Shown here: piece by piece, positions 1-7,822 of the stretch
How positions within the stretch are numbered: position 1 is the stretch's first letter
Layout of the letters: each line of letters begins with the position of its first letter
Source: a virus
Strand: one strand, 5' to 3'
Length of the DNA: 21,303 bases
Virus record (IMG/VR): IMGVR_UViG_3300007722_000140
Span: 1 to 21,303 of that record
Notes under the pieces: generated by a model
Seen by the model: the letters and a program-made list of their open reading frames with translations, nothing else
Database searches by the model: none
Told to the model about the DNA's origin: nothing
Translations under genes and position numbers: made by a program

Positions 1-65
1 AAAGAGCCCTTGCCTTGCCAACGCCATGCCAAGCCTCGCCTCGCCCGGCCTTGCCACGCCGTGAC
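1..65. repeat. Degenerate NNGCC pentamer array, copy A (touches window edge)
   Basis: After the leader AAAGAGCCC (1-9) come ten consecutive units ending in GCC (10-60). Nine are pentamers of the form NNGCC and one (20-25) is a hexamer. The array ends in GTGAC (61-65). The first two bases of each unit vary freely while GCC is constant. Copy B at 92-156 has the same leader, the same number of units and a near-identical end. The leader probably starts left of the window. Function unknown. Confidence 0.85.
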
Positions 66-91
66 ATTCGCGGAAACCACCACCATTGCTC

Positions 92-156
92 AAAAGAGCC
101 CTTGCCCAGCCGTGCCTTGCCGCGCCACGCCCCGCCGGGCCAGGCCTGGCCTTGAC
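92..156. repeat. Degenerate NNGCC pentamer array, copy B
   Basis: The leader AAAAGAGCCC (92-101) is followed by ten perfect NNGCC units (102-151) and the end TTGAC (152-156). The leader overlaps a small perfect inverted repeat, GCTC-AAAA-GAGC (88-99). Read on the minus strand the array starts four bases after the stop codon of the gene at 160-726, so it lies in that gene's 3' untranslated region. Period-five repeats have no stop codons in several frames, so any open frame here is a by-product and not evidence of a protein. Confidence 0.85.
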
Positions 157-159
157 GTT

Positions 160-726
160 TCAAAGAATCGCGAACCGTCCAAATTTTGGACGATAGTCAC
201 CGATCCCCGCTTGACTTCCAGCGTCGTGCACAGCTAGTTCGATGTTTTCAGGATTCACTAAATCCTCGTTATACGTCACATCAAACGACATTTTCCATCT
301 TTTGAAAATCGGGCGAGTTCGCATAATTCTCGCCATGCCAACCTTCACGGGTCGGATGTCCACATACTGAATGCCACGATCCCAAAGCTCGTCGGCCGTG
401 AGAGATTCACCGTAGTCAAGGACAGAGTCATCCATCACGCAGATCGACGACTTGAATTGCTTTCCGAGTTTGCTTTTTTTTGCACCATCGACAATACAGC
501 TTTCGATCAGCTCCGACGGAACGTGGACTATTCCATCAGAGTTCAAGTAGAGCCCCCCTTTGAATTCCAAGCGGCTGAGTTCAAGGTGAGTTTCTTCCGT
601 TTTCTTTCTTTGAGAAGTTAGCTCTTTCATCGCTTTTGTGATTGGATTCAGCGGATTAGCAAGCTGACCGTTGTGCATAAGAAGCGGACAAATTCCTTCG
701 ACATTAAACCGGATGACCTTTGACAT
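160..726 (-). CDS. Phage protein of unknown function with RAMP/Cas7-like sequence pattern
   Basis: 188 residues, last gene of the leftward operon. I chose ATG at 726 because AAAGGG stands eight bases before it; the frame stays open upstream, but only with a TTG and no binding site. The N-terminus is a beta-strand-like segment ending in PLLMHNG. A middle block (GGLYLN, then VHVPSELIES) resembles the strand-plus-helix 'yIPGssLkg' signature of Cas7-type RAMP proteins. The C-terminus (GSQAGIGDYRPKFGRF) looks like a RAMP glycine-rich loop. Proteins starting with a similar 'PLLMH' segment are, as I recall, widespread in phages without a known role. No catalytic residues can be named. The neighbour upstream is the primase-helicase, 116 bases away; downstream the pentamer arrays begin at once. 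The Cas7 link is inference from motif shape only. Confidence 0.8.
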   Translation of the reverse strand: MSKVIRFNVEGICPLLMHNGQLANPLNPITKAMKELTSQRKKTEETHLELSRLEFKGGLYLNSDGIVHVPSELIESCIVDGAKKSKLGKQFKSSICVMDDSVLDYGESLTADELWDRGIQYVDIRPVKVGMARIMRTRPIFKRWKMSFDVTYNEDLVNPENIELAVHDAGSQAGIGDYRPKFGRFAIL

Positions 727-842
727 TTTCAAAACCCTTTCAAGAAAACCAAACCAAGAATTAACCACAGATTCAGACTTTAAGCACGCTCCAAGAATAA
801 CACAACCGCAATTCAAACAAGTTTGAAAATAAAACCAGAAAT

Positions 843-3008
843 TTATTCAACGGCCTCAAACGTGATCGCCGTTCGACCGCCGGAATTCTGCTCACCCTGG
901 ACAACGAAACCGGAAGCGACAAGCGTGTTCAGGATTTCGTTTCGTTCTTTTGAGCGGAGCCCCCGCGTTTTCCGGGTTATATCCGACAGCCTCCATTCCC
1001 CTTTTTTGGAGCGGAGCATCGCCCGCATTTTATTCACCTCGTAGCCGAATTCGCTGGTGGCAACGTACCGATCCGCCTGCCGCAGCATCCGACGCGTCAC
1101 ACAATTGTTCAGCAGGATCGCAAGGTTCGCGTCTTCGATCGAAACGACCGGAACCGACCCGCCGGACCAACGTGAGCACGCGAACAGCAACGCTAGCTTC
1201 ACAGTTTTTTCAGCAGCCCGAGACCAGATCGCCGCCGGAATAGGTTCCTCCTCCATGCGACGTTGGCTGATTTTTATAGCATGCCCCTGCAGGCGAGCGT
1301 TCGCTTCCTCGTCGGACCGGACTAGAATCGGACAGGAGCCGTCCGCCATGTCCGCCAGGTTCCCGGAGTGGGTTTTCAGCTGCAGCCAGCCAGCAGCGAG
1401 TTCGACGATAGAATCCGGGATCGGTTCAACAGAAGCGGTTTTGTTGTAGGGAACATACTTTTCAGATTCGAACACGAGACACCTGCCGAGCAACCCGCCT
1501 TTCAAGTTCTCCTCCGACATCGCCGTCCAGAAGCCCTCGGGAACGGCGGTCCCGTATAACACCAGATGAGGATAAGAGAGCGTTTTGACTTTCTTACGGT
1601 CTCCGTAAGCGTCGCCCGTCCAGATCGAATCGGCCGATGAGAAAATTTGCATGAGCACCGACGCGATTTGAGCCAGGTGCGGAGCGGAGCGGTTTTGCAT
1701 CGCCATAGCGAGATGTTGAATTTCGTCGATTTGGAAAAGCGTGTTCCACTGATGAGCCATCGCGGAAACGATCCCGGCATGAGAGCCGACGCGTTCAGGT
1801 CCAACAAGCTCGGCACCACCGGCAGCACGCAGGATCCGCCGGTTCAGTTTTCGGCCGTGATCCTTCCCACCGCCCGAAGGAGCGAGCCCGATCAGAAACA
1901 GGTTGCTCCGGGCTCCCCCGCTTTCGACTTTTCCCCCGGTCAAGGAGGACAGGAGAGCAAGAGCCGAAGCGACAGCCAGCTCCGGGAGCGGATACAACGC
2001 CGTCCGAAGATTGTAATTCACCACTTCCCCGAGGAACCCGGGCAGATTGAGGCATTCATCCGGGAATAGAAGATCCTCCTCTGGAGCCACTGGCGGCCGT
2101 TCAGCGGGTTCGCCCGGGCAATTTGGTATGTAATCATCCCCCACAGGATCGACCGCCACAGGAGCCTTGTCGCGTCGCGGGGTTCCGTTTGTACGACCGT
2201 TGACCGACGCCTCAACCAGCTCGGCATATTTCAGCCGTGGATCGTTCTTCAGGTTCCAGACTTCCAGCAGCGACAGGACATCTGGATCCGAGAGCCTTTC
2301 TCCGAAGTCCCCGACCATAGAATGCAGATGACCAGACAGCGAGAATGCGGCATTCCGCAGATTTCCTTTTGACGAGCCTTCGATCGTTTCGATGTACGCC
2401 TGAGCCCGAACGTCCAGCGAGCCGCCCGGCAGTCGGCTGGGCGCAGGCATTTGCTTTGCAGGAGCAGGACCAGCAGGTTCGCCAGCGAGGAATTCACCAC
2501 AAAGCCAATCGATCGCCTCCTGCCCGGTTTCCGCCATTTCGGACATCCCGCCGAACACCTCGCCCGTGAAGGTCCAGAACCGGGAGTGATCGTAGCATTC
2601 GATCTGCTGTTTTTGCGGACCGACTTTATGGACACACCGAGCTCCTGCAGGCTTCCTGCCGTAGAGGAGGAATTTCACGCCACGCCCGGATGGCGACACC
2701 TCGCCATAAGCCACATCCCGAAAACGTTCGATGACCGGCAACGCCCAGTCGCGCACCTCGCCGTCCTCCGAGATGCAGTTATCGAGATCGACACCAACAA
2801 CCAGACCGTCGGCCAGCTCGAACGCCAGCCCTTGATAATATTTTGAAGCACCCAGAGCGTCCGCATAAGCAGACCACGTTTCAGGATCGTTCGACTTCGC
2901 GGGTTGCCCGTTCGTTTGCAGCGGGATCTTCACCCCTTCCCTTGAGTAATTCCAGACGTGCCATTGCTTCAGTTCCTTCAGCGGAGCCAGTAATTTCTCG
3001 GAGGACAT
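843..3008 (-). CDS. Prim-pol/DUF3987-like replicative primase-helicase
   Basis: 721 residues. The N-terminal third is a primase-polymerase (prim-pol) domain: GVDLDN with D74 and D76 as metal ligands, SPSGRG (about 105-110) and ECYDHSRFWTFTG (about 137-149) follow the family order. After a Pro/Ala-rich linker (about 176-195) and a helical segment comes a DUF3987-type helicase domain with a P-loop (GLAPSGGGKD, about 374-383) and a Walker B (FQIDEI, about 425-430). It probably primes and unwinds DNA at the phage origin. Two ATG codons are close together (3014 and 3008). AAGGA touches the first but stands six bases before the second, so 3008 is preferred. The 124 bases upstream hold no convincing gene; a 22-codon frame there lacks a binding site. 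Confidence 0.88.
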   Translation of the reverse strand: MSSEKLLAPLKELKQWHVWNYSREGVKIPLQTNGQPAKSNDPETWSAYADALGASKYYQGLAFELADGLVVGVDLDNCISEDGEVRDWALPVIERFRDVAYGEVSPSGRGVKFLLYGRKPAGARCVHKVGPQKQQIECYDHSRFWTFTGEVFGGMSEMAETGQEAIDWLCGEFLAGEPAGPAPAKQMPAPSRLPGGSLDVRAQAYIETIEGSSKGNLRNAAFSLSGHLHSMVGDFGERLSDPDVLSLLEVWNLKNDPRLKYAELVEASVNGRTNGTPRRDKAPVAVDPVGDDYIPNCPGEPAERPPVAPEEDLLFPDECLNLPGFLGEVVNYNLRTALYPLPELAVASALALLSSLTGGKVESGGARSNLFLIGLAPSGGGKDHGRKLNRRILRAAGGAELVGPERVGSHAGIVSAMAHQWNTLFQIDEIQHLAMAMQNRSAPHLAQIASVLMQIFSSADSIWTGDAYGDRKKVKTLSYPHLVLYGTAVPEGFWTAMSEENLKGGLLGRCLVFESEKYVPYNKTASVEPIPDSIVELAAGWLQLKTHSGNLADMADGSCPILVRSDEEANARLQGHAIKISQRRMEEEPIPAAIWSRAAEKTVKLALLFACSRWSGGSVPVVSIEDANLAILLNNCVTRRMLRQADRYVATSEFGYEVNKMRAMLRSKKGEWRLSDITRKTRGLRSKERNEILNTLVASGFVVQGEQNSGGRTAITFEAVE

Positions 3009-3132
3009 TCGCATTCCTTATGGTTGGTAAAAAAACCGGCTGACCAAGTCCTCAAGCGATTTGGGGTTGATCGACAAGTTCGTTGTGACCGGAAGTAACC
3101 GTAACGTTTACCATCACCATAAGAGCAGACTT

Positions 3133-4833
3133 TCAAAAAGGAACATCGTCATCAGAACCGGAAAATTCAGAATAAGGTCCAGCCGCCACAGGTTCTTTCC
3201 ACGACAGCGGCCGTTCCTGCAGGAACACCTGATTTGTGATTTTCGTATAGCGGCCTTCCTTGACTATAAACAGCTCGTCGGGCCACCGGGAACAACCACA
3301 ATCCAGCATTTCTATCGCGTCCTCTACGGAAGCGGGAACCGGAGCGATTGAATGTTCACGCCACCACCCCTCTGCTTTCACCCGAGCGAAACCAACATGA
3401 TCCAGGCACACCCACTCCGAAACGTGCTCTGTTATAGAACCGTCGCCGTCCGTGCAGTCGTAATCGATCCGGAGCGTCGCAGGATCGTCCGGGGTTCCGC
3501 CCCGTTTGACATGATAAGCCCAGTGAACATTCAGGACCTTCAGGCCACGCGGTAAAACAGGACCACCGATGATCGCGGATTCATCATCCGACTCCGCTTC
3601 GTGCTTCGGAGGAAATATAAACCCACAGCTCGGGCAAACCGTAAGCCTTGAGGAACACGAGCTTTGACAGTTCGGACATTTGAAGCCACCGCCTTCGATA
3701 GGATCGGAAGCGTCGCCCTCCCGTTTCTGCACAGAAAAACGACCGTAAGCAGGATCGTCCAGAGCCCCGTGACGTTTGATGTTCCCGCCGAAGTCCAACA
3801 CGAGACAGTCGGTTTTGCCGGGAGATTTCCGGAGCCCTCGCCCAACAATTTGGGCAAACAGGCCAGGAGACATTGTCATCCGCAGGACAGCGATCGCGTC
3901 AATATTCGGAGCGTCGAACCCGGTCGTGAGCACGTCGCAGTTGACCAACCAGCGGAGCCGCCCGGATTTGAAGTCCGACAGGATCGCCGCCCTTTCCATT
4001 GGGAACGTTTCGCCCGTGATGACTTCCACATTCTCGCCAGATTTTGCCGACAGCATGATCGCGATTTCATTCGCATGCAGGACGCAAGAAGCGAACAGCA
4101 GGCATGACATCCGGCCAGCGGCCTTTTCTACAATTTCAGCGACCGCCAGCTCCGTGTTTCCAGAATCCATGAAAGCGGATTGGACATCCGTCGTCACGAA
4201 CTCGCCGCCGCGAACAGGGATCCCTTCCGAGCTAACCGTTGCGACAGCAGCCCGGTTGACGACAGGCGACAGGAACCCTTCTTTGATCAACGTCCCGGTT
4301 TGGGATTCATAGCAGATCGATTGGAACAACATGTCCGCCCGGCAGATCTCACCCTCGCCCGTTCGGAAGGGTGTGGCAGTAAGACCAACAACCCGTTGGT
4401 TTGAGTTTTGCACTTTCGCATCCGACAGGAATTGACCGTACATGGTATCGTCCTCGGGCGAAACCAGATGAGCCTCGTCGATAACGATCAGCTCCCGCCG
4501 TCCCAGCAGGAGAGCCTTTCGATAAATCGATTGGATCCCAGCACACACGACGTCCTCCACCACCTGTCGCGATTTCATTCCAGCCGAGTAAATCCCAACC
4601 TTCAGAGATGGCATGAGGATTTTTATCTTTTCTGCATTTTGAGCGATCAATTCCTTTCGATGCTGGAGCACCACAACACGGGCTCCGAACTCGACAGCCT
4701 GCTGGCAGATCATGGCGATCACGAGCGACTTGCCAGCTCCGGTCGGGAGCACCACGAGCGGGTTGCCAGATTCGTTGTTGATAAAATCCCACACAGCGTC
4801 GTGGGCTTCGGTTTGGTAATAGCGAGGAATCAA
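3133..4833 (-). CDS. SF2 DNA/RNA helicase with C-terminal zinc ribbon
   Basis: 566 residues. Superfamily 2 helicase core with motif I PTGAGKS (30-36), motif II DEAH (119-122), motif III LTATP (151-155), motif V TTGFDAPN (303-310) and motif VI QIVGRGLR (328-335). A four-cysteine zinc ribbon follows (C386, C389, C400, C403), then a C-terminal domain of about 160 residues seen in phage-type members of this group. The start is a TTG at 4833, with AAAGG eight bases upstream; the helicase N-terminus (the Q-motif-like RYYQ) begins immediately after it, so a later start would cut the domain. It likely works with the primase-helicase and recombination proteins in DNA replication or restart. Confidence 0.92.
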   Translation of the reverse strand: MIPRYYQTEAHDAVWDFINNESGNPLVVLPTGAGKSLVIAMICQQAVEFGARVVVLQHRKELIAQNAEKIKILMPSLKVGIYSAGMKSRQVVEDVVCAGIQSIYRKALLLGRRELIVIDEAHLVSPEDDTMYGQFLSDAKVQNSNQRVVGLTATPFRTGEGEICRADMLFQSICYESQTGTLIKEGFLSPVVNRAAVATVSSEGIPVRGGEFVTTDVQSAFMDSGNTELAVAEIVEKAAGRMSCLLFASCVLHANEIAIMLSAKSGENVEVITGETFPMERAAILSDFKSGRLRWLVNCDVLTTGFDAPNIDAIAVLRMTMSPGLFAQIVGRGLRKSPGKTDCLVLDFGGNIKRHGALDDPAYGRFSVQKREGDASDPIEGGGFKCPNCQSSCSSRLTVCPSCGFIFPPKHEAESDDESAIIGGPVLPRGLKVLNVHWAYHVKRGGTPDDPATLRIDYDCTDGDGSITEHVSEWVCLDHVGFARVKAEGWWREHSIAPVPASVEDAIEMLDCGCSRWPDELFIVKEGRYTKITNQVFLQERPLSWKEPVAAGPYSEFSGSDDDVPF

Positions 4834-4845
4834 GAGAGCAGCCTT

Positions 4846-5064
4846 TCAGAAAAAAAGAATAACAACTTCACACGTTTTGCGTTCAAAAAAGAAGTTTTCA
4901 TGCTGGGTGATTTGGTCGAACGCACGACCAGCGAAAGCAACCGTGTTGCAGGCAGTTTCCCGGACACGCGGACCGAAACTGTAAGGGGGGGAACTTTCCC
5001 GGAGCACGACAGCGGACGAGAATTCCATCACGCAACGCAGAGATCTCGTATCGATTTCTTCCAC
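4846..5064 (-). CDS. Small hypothetical protein
   Basis: 72 residues starting at GTG 5064. AAGGGG lies about eight bases upstream, which is the main support. The product has no motif I recognise: a short acidic start, a Cys/Arg/Ser-rich middle and a hydrophobic end (CEVVILFF). The gene stops 12 bases before the SF2 helicase start, and the helicase ribosome binding site lies in this short gap, so the two are probably translated from one message. An alternative frame over the same bases has no binding site. Moderate confidence because of size. Confidence 0.5.
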   Translation of the reverse strand: MEEIDTRSLRCVMEFSSAVVLRESSPPYSFGPRVRETACNTVAFAGRAFDQITQHENFFFERKTCEVVILFF

Positions 5065-5136
5065 CGCTATTCCCCTTTTTCAAGTCTAGAATCCAAAACC
5101 CGTAATGCAAGTTTGATCATTTGAGACATAAGGGGT

Positions 5137-5610
5137 TCAGCCTTCCAGAGATTTGACCACAGCCAGCAGCCGGGTCGTTTCACGGGTAAAAATTTCAACA
5201 GCCATAGAGGGGTCATGAGCGAAAACGAAATCGCCCCATTCGTAAAATTCACGGTCGCCCTGCTCTTTGTCCACTCGCCAAACCAGACTGCAGGCGAGCG
5301 GATAAACCCCACACGCGCGTTTTAAAGCAAGATCAGCGAACATCTGACGTTGATCAACGCTGATGGTTTTCCAGCCCTTCGTGATATCGCCAGAGAGAAC
5401 CTCGTGAGCGTCGTGCAGTAATCCCCACAGTTCAATCCAAGGATCTAAGCCTCGCAATTCCCACCACACCTGTAGCGAGTGAAGCAGGACGTTTGACGTT
5501 GGATGCTGACCGCCGAACCGGCCGATTCGCTGGAGCGATTCAGCCAGCCAGCGAGGGTTTGAGACGCAAGCCTCCGCCCACTCATCAATGTCCGTAATAT
5601 AGTGATTCAC
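5137..5610 (-). CDS. HD-domain phosphohydrolase, YfbR-like nucleotidase
   Basis: 157 residues. The HD signature is clear: H44 in VLLHSL, then LLHDAHE with H66-D67, followed by a SGDI segment with D75. This is the metal-binding pattern of YfbR-type 5'-deoxynucleotidases and of related phage HD proteins that act on nucleotides, so a role in dNTP balance is likely. The start is GTG 5610 with GGAGG seven bases before it; a longer frame reaching 5667 would run through a hairpin that looks like a terminator and has no binding site. It lies between the single-strand binding protein and the helicase genes. Confidence 0.85.
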   Translation of the reverse strand: MNHYITDIDEWAEACVSNPRWLAESLQRIGRFGGQHPTSNVLLHSLQVWWELRGLDPWIELWGLLHDAHEVLSGDITKGWKTISVDQRQMFADLALKRACGVYPLACSLVWRVDKEQGDREFYEWGDFVFAHDPSMAVEIFTRETTRLLAVVKSLEG

Positions 5611-5635
5611 AATAGAGCCTCCGGTCAGAGAGAAA

Positions 5636-5658
5636 CCCGGTCCCGAATCAGGACCGGG
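5636..5658 (-). terminator. GC-rich hairpin between the ssDNA-binding and HD genes
   Basis: Perfect 8-bp inverted repeat (CCCGGTCC / GGACCGGG) with a 7-base loop, 16 bases after the stop of the gene at 5674. On the minus strand it is followed by TTTCTCT, so it is at best a partial (attenuating) terminator. It ends some 25 bases before the next start. Confidence 0.5.
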
Positions 5659-5673
5659 ATTGAACAACAGGGA

Positions 5674-6219
5674 TCAGACATAAGGATTTTTTCTTGCAGG
5701 CTTTGCAGGAGCCTCTTCCGTTTTTTCCCCATTGTGAAATGATTGCTCAACCAACGATGGGTCGGGTTCAGCAGCCGGTTCAGCAGGAGCCTTCGGAGCC
5801 ACGAGCGACTTCAACGAAGCAGCCGGAACGAGCCTCGGCTTGAAAGAAGCGATTTCGTTCCGAGGATTCCCGTTTTGATCGGTCGTGACTTTCACGACCG
5901 CCACGAGCGGTTTGTTCAGCCATTCATCCGTCAACTCTGCGGACACAAGATTCAGAGCCGCGCCGATCGTTTTGAATTGCTGTCGTCCGATCAGCTGCGC
6001 CAACGAGGAAGCATTGCGAACGTTATACCCCCCGAACAGAACCGCGTTTTGATGCTTGCCAGACAGGACGGATGCCTTGCAATTCATGCGGGAGCCCGTC
6101 CCGTCCTTCGTAGCCTTCTCGACAATTTCCGTCAGGATGACCGGATAGTCGCCAGCAGGCAGCACCTCGAACGTTTGGTCCGGAACGTTCTCAAGATCCA
6201 GAGATTCCAAATTTGCCAT
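5674..6219 (-). CDS. DUF669-like single-stranded DNA-binding protein
   Basis: 181 residues. The N-terminal part (VLPAGDYPVILTEI, then MNCKASVLSGKHQNAVLF and a region giving 'N' and 'A/G'-rich helices) follows the layout of DUF669 proteins, an OB-fold-like phage family coded beside Sak4 recombinases and shown for some members to bind single-stranded DNA. The C-terminal 50 residues are Ala/Pro/Glu-rich and end in basic NPYV, like a flexible tail. ATG 6219 is chosen because GGAG stands nine bases upstream. It directly follows the Sak4-like ATPase gene, a known functional pair in phage recombination. The family assignment rests on pattern and context. Confidence 0.78.
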   Translation of the reverse strand: MANLESLDLENVPDQTFEVLPAGDYPVILTEIVEKATKDGTGSRMNCKASVLSGKHQNAVLFGGYNVRNASSLAQLIGRQQFKTIGAALNLVSAELTDEWLNKPLVAVVKVTTDQNGNPRNEIASFKPRLVPAASLKSLVAPKAPAEPAAEPDPSLVEQSFHNGEKTEEAPAKPARKNPYV

Positions 6220-7410: not shown

Positions 7411-7641
7411 TCACCACTCCCCGTGATATAGGATTTCAGATTGAACAATTGCGGAGTCAGCCTGGAACCCAACAGGGAACCGCACCGGCCTGCAGTCCGT
7501 GCAGTCCGTGCAGTACGCGGGGATGTTCAGAAAAGCAACACGCATCGCCTCACCACACCCGTCGCAGTAATCCCGGACCAGCTTCGAGCCTTCGATCGGA
7601 GAACCGACGTTCCCACAGTATTGGCTATTCTTTTTTCTCAC
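7411..7641 (-). CDS. Small zinc-ribbon protein
   Basis: About 76 residues. Cysteines occur as DYCDGCGEAM and YCTDCTDC, which suggests a zinc knuckle; the second group comes from a tandem 9-base repeat (about 7490-7515). GTG 7641 has GGGGGG seven bases upstream. An ATG two codons earlier (7647) is possible, but then the spacing falls to one base. The start overlaps the end of csrA by 17 bases and the stop abuts the RusA start, so it belongs to the same operon. No function can be given. Confidence 0.75.
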   Translation of the reverse strand: MRKKNSQYCGNVGSPIEGSKLVRDYCDGCGEAMRVAFLNIPAYCTDCTDCRPVRFPVGFQADSAIVQSEILYHGEW

Positions 7642-7822
7642 GGCCATGCCCCCCGTCGATAAGGTCCTGAATTTCGGACCTATTCACCCCGACGTTTTTT
7701 GGAGCATCGAAACCAATACGGGTCTTGTGACCACGGATTTCGATCACCATAATCGTAATCCGAACGCCGTCCGGGAGCGTAATAATAATCCGTTCGTTCA
7801 CTTCGCGAGACAATACAAGCAT
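7625..7822 (-). CDS. csrA: CsrA-family translational regulator
   Basis: 65 residues, typical CsrA length. It opens with the canonical MLVLSR (L4 and R6 contact RNA) and ends the core with RIGFDAPKNVGVNRSEI, where R48 corresponds to the RNA-binding R44 of E. coli CsrA. The loop after strand one (TLPDG) is longer than in the E. coli protein. CsrA dimers bind GGA motifs near ribosome binding sites and block or stabilise messages. ATG 7822 is preceded by AAAGGA at eight bases; that GGA could allow self-regulation. A frame extension to 7900 is open but not homologous to the family. The gene heads the recombination part of the operon, so it may act on phage or host messages. Confidence 0.95.
   Translation of the reverse strand: MLVLSREVNERIIITLPDGVRITIMVIEIRGHKTRIGFDAPKNVGVNRSEIQDLIDGGHGREKKE

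Follow-up and report, generated by a model that had tools for sequence, protein, structure and literature searches.

We found that the left end of the window, by which we mean the whole 21.3-kb stretch of DNA analysed, carries what is, judging from its sequence, almost certainly the vrRNA array of a VIPR system that the phage encodes. According to the bioRxiv preprint PMC13142463 (April/June 2026; main text), VIPR is an RNA-guided DNA-binding relative of CRISPR that is encoded mainly by phages and prophages and is used by phages against rival phages. As described there, Vipr, a RAMP-family homolog of about 20 kD, acts with vrRNAs made of 9–16 YNNGG repeats and a structured tail, and the system reads double-stranded DNA by a one-base-skip code, with the skip usually at the wobble base; expression, RNP formation, the one-base skip and repression are reported for the VIPR of phage SUSP1. 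The window holds a 188-aa Vipr homolog with a RAMP fold, two arrays of ten GGC units each and a constant structured 3′ tail, and it is of tailed-phage origin. The element looks functional and real, and its class of system has already been described. VIPR was first described in the April 2026 preprint, and here it was found from raw sequence by the guide array alone.

The genes of this tailed-phage fragment lie mostly on the minus strand and include those for a portal, a capsid/protease, a tape measure, a Sak4-like annealing protein, a ssDNA-binding protein, a helicase and a primase. Comparison of the primase with IMG/VR gave no match, and neither did a nucleotide search of phages with window positions 1–6000. 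A CsrA-like regulator is encoded at 7625–7822 (PHROG 9500, E 1.6e-13), and in several relatives, as judged by eye, a CsrA-like gene stands beside a RusA-like gene.

Two repeat arrays at the left end

An earlier note on this DNA had described two matched ten-unit NNGCC arrays, each with the leader AAAGAGCCC and an end of the form [G/T]TGAC, and both are real. Array 1 has ten GCC units at 10–60 followed by GTGAC (61–65), array 2 has ten at 102–151 followed by TTGAC (152–156), and the leader is present at 1–9 and 93–101. Runs of five GCCs spaced exactly 5 bases apart number 10 in the window and all fall inside the array stretch, compared with 0 in each of 100 dinucleotide-preserving shuffles of the window. 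The strict frame that had been read in both arrays holds for array 2 but not for array 1, where the third unit contains an extra base (AACGCC, 20–25). The arrays do differ in almost all variable dinucleotides, the first being the only one in common. The functional strand, which the note had overlooked, is most likely the minus strand. On it the arrays read (GGC-NN)n, in full GTC-AA-(GGC-NN)10-GG, and GGGCTCTTTTGAGCAATGGTGGTGGTTTCCGCGAAT comes after each of them, its second copy truncated at the contig end. Nearly all NN pairs within the two ten-unit GGC arrays are different. The features, with vrRNA assignments predicted from the sequence, are as follows.

160..726, minus strand: vipr gene, 188 aa, ATG at 726, predicted RAMP-fold guide-RNA-binding protein; the mechanical ORF extends to 816
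102..156, minus strand: putative vrRNA-A repeat tract, GTC-AA then ten GGC-NN units, 5′ end a few bases past the vipr stop codon; NN = AA CA CT CC GG GT GC AA AC TG AA
66..101, minus strand: putative vrRNA-A 3′ tail, consisting of the GGGCTCTTTTGAGC stem-loop, ATGGTGG, a second small stem-loop GTGG-TTT-CCGC, and GAAT
10..65, minus strand: putative vrRNA-B repeat tract, GTC-AC then ten GGC units, one of 6 bases; NN = AC GT AA CG GA GA TT AT GT(T) AA AA
1..9, minus strand: start of the putative vrRNA-B 3′ tail (GGGCTCTTT), identical to the start of tail A; the contig end cuts the rest

A coding origin of the repeats is unlikely, because the neighbouring gene stops before them, because both strands have several open frames across them, and because relatives with varying dinucleotides keep the GGY-to-GGY spacing at 5 in 440 of 443 cases. 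A frame conserved as protein, which the note had raised as an alternative, is unlikely on the same figures. Spacing of 6 bases accounts for the other 3 of the 443 in the clade, and vrRNA-B of the window has one such unit (GGC-GTT, 20–25).

The neighbouring gene and its linkage to the arrays

On the minus strand the vipr stop codon lies at 160–162, and the first array begins a few bases beyond it. The protein encoded at 160–726 belongs to PHROG 4652 (profile match, E 1.5e-51) and is 33% identical to ALH47069.1 of phage SUSP1 (E 8e-39); Pfam and NCBIfam held no family for it. ALH47069.1 (28474–29061) is itself in PHROG 4652 (E 1.4e-96) and sits between GGYNN arrays. From its position, size and arrays we infer that it is the Vipr of PMC13142463, the main text of which gives no accession. 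An AlphaFold2 model of the window protein, built from 19 homologs, reached a pLDDT of 91 and a pTM of 0.84. Its 50 best PDB matches were all RAMP subunits of CRISPR systems (Csm, Cmr, type III-D and type VII), the nearest being Csm3/Cas7-type RAMPs, with a best E of 1.7e-5 and a TM-score of about 0.5.

Next to this gene, arrays are the rule among relatives. We collected 24 IMG/VR loci with close Vipr homologs (40–67% identity), and in 22 of these 24 viral relatives strict arrays lie next to vipr on the same strand, with several arrays per phage that each have different variable bases. Array length varies among them, so the unit number of ten is not the constant that the note had seen in it. 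In many relatives a further gene, about 150 aa long, is placed between the arrays or behind them. Compared by profile, this vap matched the vap1 family of SUSP1 (probability 91.7, E 7.9e-7), a marker of type II VIPR; direct comparison with the SUSP1 vap1 sequence alone gave no match, the result being positive only with the family profile. No vap gene is present in the window up to its left edge, and that of the window phage would lie beyond it.

The pattern search in phage DNA that the note had proposed was run on IMG/VR with the pattern (NNGCC)8, eight GCCs spaced five bases apart, and returned at least 120 stretches. Among the matches listed, a Vipr homolog was found in the examined stretch of 85 of 120 array contigs (71%) compared with 1 of 58 control contigs that had been collected on other grounds, and 294 of the 301 arrays listed in those 85 contigs lie on the strand of vipr. 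The array pattern is a cheap, protein-independent way to VIPR systems, including those with divergent Vipr proteins. When examined for randomness, the variable positions were near-random dinucleotides in most listed array contigs, which contain several arrays each. That the arrays are a degenerate simple-sequence or coding repeat without function is vanishingly improbable: frames through the arrays are open, and a few pattern contigs (L018, L027, L082 and L101) do hold plain repeats, but the high dinucleotide entropy beside a fixed GCC, the conserved covarying tail described below and the strong Vipr linkage all speak against it, and we reject it on strand bias, tail covariation and linkage. 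The earlier judgement that a fixed GCC frame with free dinucleotides is not simple slippage was sound.

The remaining 35 of the 120 listed array contigs had no Vipr homolog in the examined stretch (for example L023, L067, L068, L085 and L093), and L023 and L068 hold seven degenerate arrays each. Such contigs could encode divergent Vipr types, or the arrays could be near a contig end. In a search of 84,980 species genomes with the leader and four units, the only exact match was in a Desulfurococcales archaeon MAG (L122, 6456–6484), which may be an archaeal VIPR or the result of mis-binning.

Like the type II VIPR of SUSP1, the window has a homologous RAMP protein, downstream GGY/NN arrays on the same strand and a structured tail, all phage-encoded, and its relatives share the vap1-like gene. 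However, the fixed triplet is mostly GGT in SUSP1 and GGC throughout in the window, the window tail consists of two small hairpins whose sequence differs from the SUSP1 tail, and the window has no array upstream of vipr and no vap seen. LESphi2 (a prophage of Pseudomonas aeruginosa, OQ594955) and Medea1 (MW862109) encode PHROG 4652 proteins 36–41% identical to that of the window and have a vap1-family gene after Vipr. LESphi2 contains GGC/NN arrays, but upstream of vipr, and both have tails other than that of the window; the examined stretch of Medea1 showed no strict arrays. The effector RAMPs of class 1 CRISPR (Csm3/Cas7, Cmr) share the fold of the window protein, whereas the window has a small single-domain protein and a non-contiguous guide, with no repeat-spacer array and no cas operon seen. 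Examination of the window for class 1 CRISPR-Cas revealed only 5-base units and no cas gene among the identified genes.

The guides and their possible target

By analogy with SUSP1, we infer transcription, processing, RNP formation, target recognition and repression in the window phage. The minus strand would be transcribed, probably jointly with vipr, and processing of the transcript would give vrRNAs about 90 nt long, each with a GGC/NN tract and a two-hairpin 3′ tail. Vipr subunits would line up on this RNA, one GGC per subunit, and the NN pairs would be presented to double-stranded DNA. Each unit would skip one base of the target, giving the reading NNxNNx..., and the skipped bases would usually be wobble bases in a gene of the rival element, the transcription of which would thereby be blocked. 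Our best guess is that the system would act against rival phages or satellites. The variable bases, described before as free positions, would rather be the guide, that is, the information.

When the skipped base is read as wobble, guide A corresponds to [KN][HQ]LPGVA[KN]T[CW][KN] and guide B to TV[KN]R[DE][DE][FL][IM]V[KN][KN]. For 31 clade guides, sense codon positions 1–2 were the best of six frames in 1990 of 2000 bootstraps, and for the guides of the 120 listed array contigs the same frame was best in 1959 of 2000, by a small margin. This codon-phase signal agrees with the skip on the wobble base published in PMC13142463 and extends support for the skip code to a clade beyond those tested.

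No natural target was found for guide A or B. Exact 18- or 22-base gapped matches to guide A were absent from IMG/VR, and partial matches of guides A and B there (16/22 or 16/20, from 16-base gapped patterns) were at about chance level and did not extend. With up to 3 mismatches, neither guide gave a match above chance in the window and 15 records, and none at all in the 15 records. Furthermore, when 74 clade guides were compared with the collected contigs at skips of 0–3 with shuffled controls, skip 1 did no better than shuffled guides and skip 3 trivially recovered the arrays themselves. The real target may be absent from the collections searched. Contig L160, which was collected for its 16-base match to guide B, encodes a Vipr homolog as well (E 1e-60); the match does not extend and is probably due to chance.

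The failure to find a target, together with the 6-base unit in vrRNA-B, would fit a VIPR array that has decayed or is no longer used in the window phage. We consider this improbable, as vipr is intact and keeps all family-invariant residues in the alignment of homologs, the vrRNA-A repeats are perfect and tail A folds.

The vrRNA tail and its possible processing

About 26 clade tails (25–26) are built on one plan: stem-loop 1, TGGTGG, stem-loop 2 and GAAT. In the window, stem 1 reads GCTC/GAGC; at this place the relatives have GACTC/GAGTT, GAGCC/GGCTC, GCAC/GTGC or GCTCTGA/TCAGAGT. Because these stems differ yet still pair, both sides of stem 1 change together. Its mean pairing score was 11.4 compared with 6.95 ± 0.31 in shuffles; the z-score from these shuffles overstates independence among tails of common ancestry, but the distinct stem sequences do not. 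Tail A is complete and folds, whereas tail B is cut by the contig end, and Rfam gave no match for the window array or for six related loci.

These tails also explain the parts of the pattern around the repeats. The GCTC-AAAA-GAGC hairpin marks the joint as the note had said, and in sequence it corresponds to the stem-loop of the vrRNA 3′ tail, with the leader as its 5′ half and [G/T]TGAC as the vrRNA 5′ start. Leader and end, both present, are thus read as tail and start of successive vrRNAs. More copies leftwards, as the note had expected, are likely; the contig edge falls inside the tail of the second unit, and further array units may well lie beyond it, where they would be joined by GGGCTCTTTTGAGCAATGGTGG-type tails.

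Another explanation is a DNA element, such as an origin, a packaging or a partition site, in which a phage protein contacts a GCC every five bp on double-stranded DNA. The regular half-turn spacing and the intergenic position would fit such a site, but in 294 of 301 cases the listed arrays come after a RAMP-fold gene and on its strand, the tails form covarying stem-loops, the guides are codon-like and strand-polar, and the several arrays of a phage differ in their variable bases. We regard a DNA element as highly improbable, and the DNA contact at every half helical turn that the note had suggested is rejected on strand bias, tail covariation and linkage to Vipr. What survives of that suggestion is a contact pattern as the likely reason for the spacing: the fixed triplet is most likely an RNA contact for the RAMP protein, in keeping with a VIPR array.

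It is possible, though less likely than not, that the window's clade forms a separate VIPR subtype whose vrRNAs are built in their own way: they would start a few bases past the vipr stop and be joined by the 36-nt two-hairpin tail, which would act as both handle and cutting site. If true, this subtype and the actinophage minihelices described below would together point to several routes by which VIPR phages free their guides.

tRNA-like minihelices adjoin arrays mainly in Gordonia and Mycobacterium phages. Each consists of a T-arm with the loop TTCRANY and an acceptor-like stem of 5–7 bp, with a linker of about 10 nt, at the following sites.

L150: 3601, 3722, 3831
L151: 2764, 2899, 4220, 4363
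L210: 1673, 3006, 3124
L211: 2431
Also in L005, L020, L094 and L108

They suggest that vrRNAs are processed by RNase P/RNase Z. The main text of PMC13142463 makes no mention of tRNA, and tRNA-like minihelices beside actinophage VIPR arrays may be new. We found 17 minihelices within 85 kb near arrays, compared with 8 in 2.7 Mb elsewhere.
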